Under the pieces are notes generated by a model. It searched no databases. It saw nothing but the letters and a program-made list of their open reading frames with translations, and was not told where the DNA came from. The position numbers and the translations under genes are program-made. Source: an uncultured Bacillus sp. (GTDB lineage: Bacteria; Bacillota; Bacilli; Bacillales; DSM-1321). From it: DNA of 12,296 bases. Positions 6,808 to 8,038 of this stretch are shown in pieces (positions within the stretch are counted from its first letter, which is position 1; the number at the start of each line of letters is the position of its first letter). The stretch spans positions 1-12,296 of the forward strand of contig CAKQBC010000039.1 in the NCBI GenBank assembly GCA_934215995.1. The letters run 5' to 3'.

Positions 6808-6838
6808 AAGGCGTTCCCCTGTTTTTAGGGAACGCCTT
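6808..6838 (-). terminator. Terminator of yidC
   Basis: An 11-bp stem, AAGGCGTTCCC / GGGAACGCCTT (6808-6818 with 6828-6838), starts 3 bases after the yidC stop codon (6842-6844). The T tract on the minus strand is short (CCTTTCTTG), so termination may be less complete than at the other hairpins here. Some readthrough into the YpzG-like gene is possible. Confidence 0.75.
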
Positions 6839-6841
6839 ATT

Positions 6842-7669
6842 TTATTTCGTGCTATTGATTTCTTGCAGGGCCGGTTTGCTGTTGAATAGCTTTTTGCTTA
6901 AATAGGACTGGAACATGAGGAAAATTCCCCCGACTGTCCAGTATAAAGGCAGGGCTGCCGGCGCACTGAATGAGATGAAACCCATCATGATCGGTGAGAT
7001 GTATCCCATTACAGCCATTTGTTTTTTCTGTTCTTCAGGCATATTCATCACGGACAGCTTGTATTGAAGCAAGTATACAAGTGCCGCAATCATCGCCAAT
7101 AAATAGTCGGGCTGTCCGAGGTTGAACCATAGGAAACTGTGTGACGCAATTTCAGGTGTATCGCGTATGGCATAGTAAAAGCCCATAAGGATCGGCATCT
7201 GCAGCAGGATTGGCAGGCAGCCCCCAAGAGATGACAACGGATTGACATCATGCTTCTGGTACAGTGCCATCACTTCCTGTTGCAGCTTTACCTGTTCTTC
7301 CTTCGTTGCACTCTTCATTTTAGCCTGTAAGGATTTCATTTCAGGCTGGATGACTTCCATTTTATCTTTCAGCTGAAGCTGCTGTTTCGTTTGTTTGAGC
7401 ATAAAGGGCATCAAAACCAGTCTGAGAACTAAAGTGACAAAGATAATGGAAAGGCCGTAATTGCCTTGAAATAATTGGGCGACCGTTTTCAATAATGCAG
7501 AAAATGGGTAAACAAAGTATTGTTGAAAGAAACTTGGCGAGACGCCCGTTTCGGTACCTGCAGCGAATGCATGCGGACCGCCTAATAGCTGGATTGCAGC
7601 TAGTATACCGGCAAAAAGAACCAGCTTTTTAAAGACAGGGGATACCGGCCGTTTGAATTTGATTGACAT
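6842..7669 (-). CDS. yidC: Membrane protein insertase YidC, YqjG (YidC2) type
   Basis: A 275-residue YidC/Oxa1/Alb3 insertase that places membrane proteins into the cytoplasmic membrane, alone or with Sec. A cleavable N-terminal signal (basic 4-15, hydrophobic 16-30, HAFAAG near 33-38) is followed by five helices (about 57-92, 150-168, 187-205, 217-233, 236-255). R83 in LVLRLVLMPF is the conserved arginine of the hydrophilic groove. A charged cytoplasmic hairpin spans about 93-143, and the family motif NPLSSLGGCLPILLQMPI spans 143-160. The lipobox cysteine found in many Gram-positive YidCs is absent. TPEIASHSFLWF (171-182) recalls B. subtilis YqjG. ATG 7669 has AGGAGG 6 nt upstream, but both are buried in a hairpin. 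An upstream MifM-like leader implies induction when membrane insertion is limiting. A second, constitutive YidC (SpoIIIJ type) would be expected elsewhere in the genome. Confidence 0.95.
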   Translation of the reverse strand: MSIKFKRPVSPVFKKLVLFAGILAAIQLLGGPHAFAAGTETGVSPSFFQQYFVYPFSALLKTVAQLFQGNYGLSIIFVTLVLRLVLMPFMLKQTKQQLQLKDKMEVIQPEMKSLQAKMKSATKEEQVKLQQEVMALYQKHDVNPLSSLGGCLPILLQMPILMGFYYAIRDTPEIASHSFLWFNLGQPDYLLAMIAALVYLLQYKLSVMNMPEEQKKQMAVMGYISPIMMGFISFSAPAALPLYWTVGGIFLMFQSYLSKKLFNSKPALQEINSTK

Positions 7670-7974
7670 GTGAAACCTCCTGTAAAATGTAAATTTTGCT
7701 TTTTAAGAGGTTTCACATGTGGGCCTTCGTCAGCAGCTTCCTTTCTTCTCACGCAGCGTGCTAGCCAAGTGGCGATTTGCAACCTTCCATTTCGCATATT
7801 CCGTGCTTGTGCGGGTAAAGCGATTGTATGGACGGTTTCAAAGCGCTTACTGGATTTGCTGGAGATGCTGATGTGCAGAAAATAAAAGATGCCGATTAAA
7901 GCTGCTGCCTTAAGAAGCAGGCCCGCTAACATCAGATAAGCAATAATATCATGTGATTCAAAAAGTTCAAGAAT
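7600..7974 (-). CDS. mifM: MifM-like nascent-chain arrest leader controlling yidC
   Basis: A 124-residue ORF if started at ATT 7974, or 110 from ATG 7932. I prefer ATT: AAAGGGGG (complement of 7983-7990) lies 8 nt upstream, whereas ATG 7932 has no ribosome binding site. ATT also places the arrest motif at residues 66-84, close to its position in B. subtilis MifM. In ATT numbering there is an acidic N-terminus, one hydrophobic segment (about 10-35), then a basic stretch, predicting N-out/C-in. The segment QIATWLARCVRRKEAADEG follows (I67, W70, D82-E83). It resembles the MifM arrest region RITTWIRKVFR with its acidic stall site DEED. After the acidic residues the frame enters the hairpin at 7720-7666 and overlaps yidC by 70 nt out of frame, stopping at TAG 7602-7600. 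Inferred role: a sensor that stalls its own ribosome when insertion is poor and so opens yidC translation. Homology is from memory. Confidence 0.75.
   Translation of the reverse strand: MLELFESHDIIAYLMLAGLLLKAAALIGIFYFLHISISSKSSKRFETVHTIALPAQARNMRNGRLQIATWLARCVRRKEAADEGPHVKPLKKQNLHFTGGFTCQSNSNGRYPLSLKSWFFLPVY
7666..7720 (-). promoter_or_regulatory. Translation-control hairpin sequestering the yidC ribosome binding site and start codon
   Basis: In the minus-strand transcript, ACATGTGAAACCTC (7720 to 7707) pairs perfectly with GAGGTTTCACATGT (7679 to 7666), giving a 14-bp stem. The stem can extend through 5 more A/T pairs (7701-7705 with 7683-7687) beyond a small internal loop. The downstream arm contains four of the six AGGAGG bases and the whole yidC AUG (7669-7667). 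The upstream arm begins within the leader codons that directly follow the acidic arrest-like residues. There is no T tract, so it is not a terminator. This is the arrangement known for mifM-yqjG. Confidence 0.85.
7838..7851 (+). promoter_or_regulatory. Cre-like sequence inside the leader ORF
   Basis: TCAAAGCGCTTACT matches 9 of 11 fixed positions of the cre consensus TGWAANCGNTNWCA and has the palindromic core AAGCGCTT. It lies in leader coding sequence (codons for KRFE), about 160 bases after the leader promoter and about 270 bases before glpF. It may be chance or a CcpA roadblock site. Confidence 0.25.
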
Positions 7975-8008
7975 GGCCGGTCCCCCCTTTCCGAGGTTTT
8001 CTATCTCT

Positions 8009-8038
8009 ATTGTATACGATTCAAAAACAAAAAGGTAA
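8009..8038 (-). promoter_or_regulatory. Candidate promoter of the leader-yidC transcript
   Basis: On the minus strand TACAAT (complement of 8009-8014) is 5 of 6 to the SigA -10. The -35 region (TTACCT, complement of 8033-8038, 18-base spacer) is poor. The predicted start, near 8002, leaves a leader of about 28 bases that contains the AAAGGGGG ribosome binding site. It lies back to back with the glpF promoter region. Confidence 0.4.

Follow-up and report, generated by a model that had tools for sequence, protein, structure and literature searches.

Does the short open reading frame in front of yidC2 in an uncultured Bacillus species encode an arrest peptide that monitors YidC as MifM does in Bacillus subtilis, and does its arrest sequence belong with that of MifM? 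The question is raised by a stretch of 12,296 nucleotides (contig CAKQBC010000039.1 of assembly GCA_934215995.1), here called the window, in which a leader ORF lies directly upstream of yidC2 on the same strand. According to the 2026 paper on CliM (PMC13183943), MifM and CliM are the only arrest peptides for which experiments have demonstrated a role in monitoring YidC. The original prediction, made from the letters of this DNA, had described a leader ORF on the yidC strand with a single hydrophobic segment followed by QIATWLARCVRRKEAADEG, and the sequence and its hydropathy confirm this description. We conclude that the leader is very probably a MifM-like YidC monitor with an arrest core of a distinct class, which is common to Paenibacillus-type leaders. 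Three points go beyond the prediction, namely an ATT start codon, an overlap of 70 nt with yidC2 and a stem over the yidC2 ribosome-binding site (Table 1).

Table 1. Features of the leader and of yidC2 in the window, with strand and the basis of each assignment
Feature	Positions	Strand	Basis
Leader ORF, 124 codons + stop	7600..7974	-	in frame from ATT 7974-7972 to TAG 7602-7600; homologue P0002
Probable ATT (AUU) leader start codon	7972..7974	-	sole in-frame candidate at proper Shine-Dalgarno distance; P0002 start at same residue
Leader Shine-Dalgarno sequence AGGGGGGA	7981..7988	-	read from sequence; ends 6 nt before ATT
Hydrophobic segment, residues 10-33	7876..7947	-	hydropathy
Variable linker, residues 34-70	7765..7875	-	mean majority fraction 0.36 vs 0.82 in core
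Conserved arrest core (putative) LARCVRRKEAADEG, residues 71-84	7723..7764	-	L71, R73, R77, K78, E79 and D82 invariant in 17/17
Predicted stall codons, D82-P85 in P site	7720..7731	-	inferred from acidic cluster position and drop in stem-opening cost
Stem-loop burying yidC2 Shine-Dalgarno sequence and start codon	7666..7720	-	MFE -24.1 kcal/mol, z -4.55
yidC2 Shine-Dalgarno sequence AGGAGG, within stem 3' arm	7676..7681	-	read from sequence and fold
yidC2, YidC/Oxa1 family insertase, 275 aa	6842..7669	-	PF02096, 151.8 bits, E 2.1e-44
Possible terminator downstream of yidC2, stem of 12 pairs followed by TCTT	6808..6838	-	fold -20.8 kcal/mol; absent from terminator scanner's list

The leader probably starts with AUU, a rare start codon of which Escherichia coli infC is an example. 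The ATT at 7974 lies 7 nt after the last G of AGGGGGG (AGGGGGGA), no ATG, GTG or TTG occurs in the leader frame of the window between 7974 and 7932, and the first usual in-frame start, ATG 7932, has no Shine-Dalgarno sequence upstream. In the close relative P0002 the annotated start (M) falls on the residue matching the ATT. The annotated GTG starts of the leaders of Paenibacillus cellulosilyticus (L008) and Paenibacillus polymyxa (L009) were rejected as proof of the window start, as this GTG sits within AGGAGGTG and, three codons past it, an ATG (L008) or TTG (L009) is found at the usual distance; the ATT therefore draws its support from the spacing and P0002 only. The ATT may also stem from an error in sequencing or from variation at the strain level. 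Further upstream, between glpF and the leader, TATACAAT (8009-8016) is a possible -10 box, and no convincing -35 box lies 17 nt away from it. In a 19-residue hydropathy scan of the leader the best stretches are residues 10-28 and 11-29 (mean 2.17) and a second hydrophobic segment is absent, all stretches beginning after residue 40 scoring at or below -0.17. The segment is flanked by acidic residues on its N-terminal side (two E and one D within residues 1-9) and by basic residues on its C-terminal side, from which charges an N-out/C-in topology is expected.

To which leaders is it related? A search with the single sequence returned P0002 as its sole match (77% identity, E 1.5e-49), while a search with a four-row alignment returned 17 proteins, P0002 among them, of which the 10 that carry an organism name are all from Paenibacillus. 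One of these matches, P0011, was left out of the 17-row and 15-row alignments used below, whose rows are not independent. The window leader matches that of P. polymyxa pairwise over residues 4-83 (E 2e-7), and the profile of the window leader and P0002 aligns to 15 Paenibacillus-type rows with an hhalign E of 9.7e-11 and a probability of 97%, none of 200 column shuffles being as good. Judged by these comparisons, the clear relatives of the window leader are Paenibacillus-type leaders, a kinship absent from the original prediction, and not B. subtilis MifM; the protein-level conservation in relatives that the original prediction had named as its check is found in P0002 and in this group. All 17 rows share the core L-x-R-x-x-[RK]-R-K-E-[AS]-x-D-[DE], and the mean majority fraction is highest in the core, followed by the N-terminal part (0.63) and the linker. 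The rows being matches of a profile search, part of this core conservation is due to selection by the search itself; the loci of P. polymyxa and P. cellulosilyticus escape that bias because they were found through their YidC. The window core is identical to that of P. polymyxa at 10 of 14 residues, five of these by different codons, and to that of P. cellulosilyticus at 7 of 14, four by different codons. Between the window leader and P0002, differences number 2/32 in the transmembrane part, 4/22 in the arrest region, 11/29 in the linker, 6/14 behind the core and 1/15 in the overlap; transmembrane part plus arrest region differ from linker plus post-core part with a Fisher p of 0.0016 for regions drawn after the alignment had been viewed, and the arrest region against the linker alone is not significant (p 0.21).

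The two Paenibacillus leaders before yidC (L009:1140-1469 and L008:1109-1468), which are annotated as hypothetical or not at all, are homologous to the window leader over the whole length, carry the same core, overlap yidC and have a stem of the same kind. They differ from it in linker sequence and length, in lacking a W before the core, in their usual start codons and in a P in place of A81. We define here a Paenibacillus-type RKEAPDED class by the core LxRxx[RK]RKE[AS]xD together with an ORF that runs through the yidC Shine-Dalgarno sequence, and the window leader has both. The leader had no match in the PDB, viral-contig scans revealed no relatives, and tblastn against plasmids returned 20 records with a best E of 0.3 and less than 60% identity, none with yidC there.

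Like MifM (B. subtilis YqzJ; PDB 3j9w chain AZ), the window leader stands in front of yidC2 and has a single hydrophobic segment near its N-terminus and an acidic cluster in the 80s, and in both cases a stem covers the yidC2 Shine-Dalgarno sequence. The distance from the hydrophobic segment to the arrest site, for which a median of 54 residues is given for MifM in PMC10987492, is 50 residues in the window when counted to the last acidic residue, E83. According to the same source, MifM sequences are classified by a stretch of five residues, within residues 70-100, whose local charge is below -0.3; EAADE at residues 79-83 carries -3 over five residues, counted by hand and not with the authors' program. 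The core itself is different. From the MifM consensus RIxxWIxxxxxMNxxxxDEED, as given in PMC7897499, the window retains I and W, I74 is replaced by L, R69, M80 and N81 are absent, DEED is reduced to D-E and one more E stands at residue 79, so that LxRxx[RK]RKE[AS]xD[DE] takes the place of the consensus. The original prediction of a MifM-like regulatory chain whose arrest sequence clearly differs finds support in the conservation, the stem, the hydrophobic segment and a similar spacing to yidC2; the alignment on I-x-T-W that was offered in its favour is weak, as the I-x-T-W-L match reads IAIWL in P0002 and is absent from the 15 Paenibacillus-type rows, the conserved part being LxRxx[RK]RKE[AS]xD. 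A W before [IL], 12-13 residues ahead of the acidic cluster, is common to the B. subtilis group, Listeria and the window, and this resemblance may therefore be old; it is not a feature common to the window's own class.

Whether this likeness reflects common descent is the point on which the strongest alternative turns, namely that the leader, as an arrest peptide without kinship to MifM, reached the MifM layout independently, doing the same job with different ribosome contacts, a reading that we consider a real if minority possibility. Direct comparisons with MifM are consistent with it: the pairwise match of the window leader to MifM residues 9-92 (E 0.063) lies in the hydrophobic segment only, the profile of window and P0002 reaches E 0.16 against a 4-row MifM-type profile and E 0.071 against a 26-row one, there again in the hydrophobic part only, and the Paenibacillus-type profile reaches E 0.059 against the four rows. 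The match of window and P0002 to the 26 rows, which include Priestia, is not significant. The 26 rows cover the B. subtilis and Bacillus pumilus groups, Priestia, Listeria and Cytobacillus, with 9 of 34 matches (P0025, P0028, P0033, P0039, P0041, P0043, P0044, P0047 and P0052) left out for being short or incomplete, or as a construct or near-duplicate; the Cytobacillus row (L014) lacks its first nine bases in the 4-row alignment and has them in the 26-row one. All 26 rows contain the acidic cluster, and the residues before it differ. An independent origin is also in keeping with the tail that follows the acidic cluster, which at the protein level measures 28-46 residues in 17/17 rows of the window's class against 6-20 in 26/26 MifM-type rows (the window row is cut at 31 residues in this count, the ORF giving 41; the position of yidC is known from DNA at few loci). 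Other arrest peptides before yidC exist in CliM of Clostridia and ApcA of Actinobacteria (PMC13183943, PMC7897499), and their motifs, KYxIW and RAPG according to PMC10987492, are both other than that of the window. Against an independent origin, deeper profiles align core with core: the 17-row class profile matches the 26 MifM-type rows with E 8.4e-4 and a probability of 24%, its score of 25.7 lying above those of all 200 column shuffles, the best of which reached 20.8, and the 15 rows that remain when the window and P0002 are removed do so with E 5.4e-4 and a probability of 30%. A remote link to MifM-type leaders is seen only between these deeper profiles and may reflect either remote homology or convergence of the core.

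The second difference from MifM concerns the layout. MifM arrests a few codons ahead of its stop and its stem is termed intergenic, as described in PMC6037786, whereas the window ORF runs through the yidC2 start and has 41 codons from E83 to its stop. The comparison covers 11 loci from the 73 plasmid records that matched the YidC2 protein, and five of these 11 have a leader of one or the other kind and are compared in detail below. At the three DNA-checked loci of the window's class leader and yidC2 share 70 nt (window), 58 nt (L008) and 35 nt (L009), and the leader reads through the ribosome-binding site; at three MifM-type loci it stops 36 nt (Listeria, L006), 29 nt (Priestia, L013) and 33 nt (Cytobacillus spongiae, L014) before yidC2. 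The Priestia and Listeria leaders resemble that of the window in position, hydrophobic segment, acidic cluster, spacing and stem, the Listeria stem being weak, and differ in this early stop; the Priestia leader (L013 1175-1456) also has HRQEAIGEQDDEGP, close to the window's RRKEAADEGP. The distance between the two start codons is 295 nt in L009, 305 nt in the window and 302 nt in L008. A programmed frameshift from leader into yidC2 was rejected, as the frame relation is +1 in L009 and +2 in the window and L008. L011 repeats the Listeria case (same species as L006), the fetched plasmid loci L007 and L016 have no such leader before yidC, and in L010, L012 (both annotated) and L015 (by ORF) rnpA precedes a primary-type yidC. 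At the Cytobacillus locus (L014 1456-2217) the yidC behind the MifM-type leader is annotated in two pieces, and the leader therefore persists beside an apparently broken target.

The strongest support for regulation is the stem, which the original prediction had overlooked. It comprises 16 pairs (7720-7705 with 7681-7666) spanning AGGAGG and the yidC2 ATG, and its MFE compares with a shuffle mean of -12.1 kcal/mol, none of 200 shuffles being as stable. The yidC2 Shine-Dalgarno sequence is paired in the predicted fold at all six leader loci, whose sequences differ. On 110-nt stretches the fold z is -3.87 for the window, -2.88 for P. cellulosilyticus, -3.70 for P. polymyxa, -3.39 for Priestia and -4.31 for Cytobacillus; that of Listeria is not significant (z -1.31, 22/200 shuffles as good), with about half of its Shine-Dalgarno sequence unpaired in the predicted fold. 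The yidC2 start follows the first base of the final acidic codon by 59 nt in the window and by 63, 68, 61, 59 and 57 nt at the five other loci, two of the six being Paenibacillus. The front of a ribosome lies at +15 from its P site. With the front so placed and the fold extended to 25 nt past the yidC2 start, opening the yidC2 site in the window costs 8.2, 3.8 and 3.3 kcal/mol with E83, G84 and P85 in the P site, respectively, down from 20.5 kcal/mol, and in L008 and L009 the main drop comes two codons past the last acidic codon. When 60 nt beyond the yidC2 start are folded, the window cost remains between 6.6 and 7.7 kcal/mol; the Shine-Dalgarno sequence goes from a mean unpaired probability of 0.08 to one of only 0.17, although the start codon goes from 0.00 to 0.62-0.94, a result that counts against easy opening of the site.

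From the computed features, i.e., the ORF, its conservation, the stem, the spacing and the fall in opening cost, we infer stalling and its release by insertion as follows. The leader would be translated from its AUU start and its N-terminal segment offered to YidC. If insertion is slow, the chain would hold the ribosome with the core LxRxxRRKEAADE in the tunnel and the P site at the final acidic codon or up to two codons beyond it; MifM stalls at D89 and the next three codons, as reported in PMC4423224, and multisite stalling would therefore fit the window leader too. The stalled ribosome would cover the 5' arm of the stem and free the yidC2 ribosome-binding site, the first base of codon E83 being 59 nt away from the yidC2 start, and YidC2 would be made. 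Upon normal insertion the pull would free the chain, the ribosome would proceed and the stem would close again. In the window's class the ORF runs through the yidC2 start and an un-arrested ribosome must therefore cross it, which would repress yidC2. We tentatively suggest, while regarding it as the less probable case, a second class of YidC monitor with its own core and its own switch, in which a parked ribosome turns yidC2 on and a crossing ribosome turns it off, because with the ORF extending through the ribosome-binding site the un-arrested ribosome would itself cover that site. If so, the AUU start in the window genome would further limit the entry of ribosomes.

An improbable alternative to arrest is plain translational coupling, in which translation of the leader as such controls yidC2 and ribosomes in the overlap open the stem. 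The overlaps at the three DNA-checked loci of the window's class are what coupling would lead one to expect, yet it requires no conserved peptide, and the core is the best conserved stretch of the leader and is kept through synonymous codon change. That the ORF is a chance frame over an RNA element whose stem alone regulates yidC2 would agree with the missing usual start codon and with the absence of any Pfam match and of any NCBIfam match above cut-off, but is already contradicted by the homologue (E 1.5e-49) and the profile match to the leaders of another lineage (E 9.7e-11) and is very unlikely to be right.

The history of the putative monitor may differ from that of its target. A tree of nine YidC rows was built without L016, L014 (annotated in two pieces) and L011, which is of the same species as L006. 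In this tree the window YidC2 forms a group with the Listeria YidC2 and a Lysinibacillus plasmid YidC (support 98/96, inner order open), and the Paenibacillus YidC2 pair falls outside this group, though the leader sides with Paenibacillus; the rows are few. The Paenibacillus-type leader may be old, or leaders may have been exchanged. The plasmid yidC of Lysinibacillus fusiformis (L007 1-1498), a tree neighbour of the window YidC2, has no such leader ORF upstream. A genome-contig scan with the window YidC2 returned four distant loci only (31-37% identity). The N-terminus of the window YidC2 (7558-7669, GGPHAFAAG) is without a lipobox cysteine, in contrast to the eight others in the comparison, which look like lipoproteins (LSGC, LTGC, LAGC).

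As far as we searched, the leader is ordinary in kind, as a MifM-like YidC monitor, and new in its arrest core and layout. In the literature searched, no paper links MifM, or YidC and an arrest peptide, with Paenibacillus, and for MifM with Listeria the match was on another subject only. The main text of PMC10987492 makes no mention of Paenibacillus, Listeria or Priestia; the cluster of 572 MifM-like sequences published there may contain the window's class. According to that source the survey was built on annotated genes, and leaders with an AUU start could therefore be missed. For the biology of these leaders, a core that is conserved and places other residues near the peptidyl transferase centre would serve as a natural experiment on the requirements of an arrest sequence, and the overlapping layout poses the testable question of how un-arrested ribosomes hold the target off.
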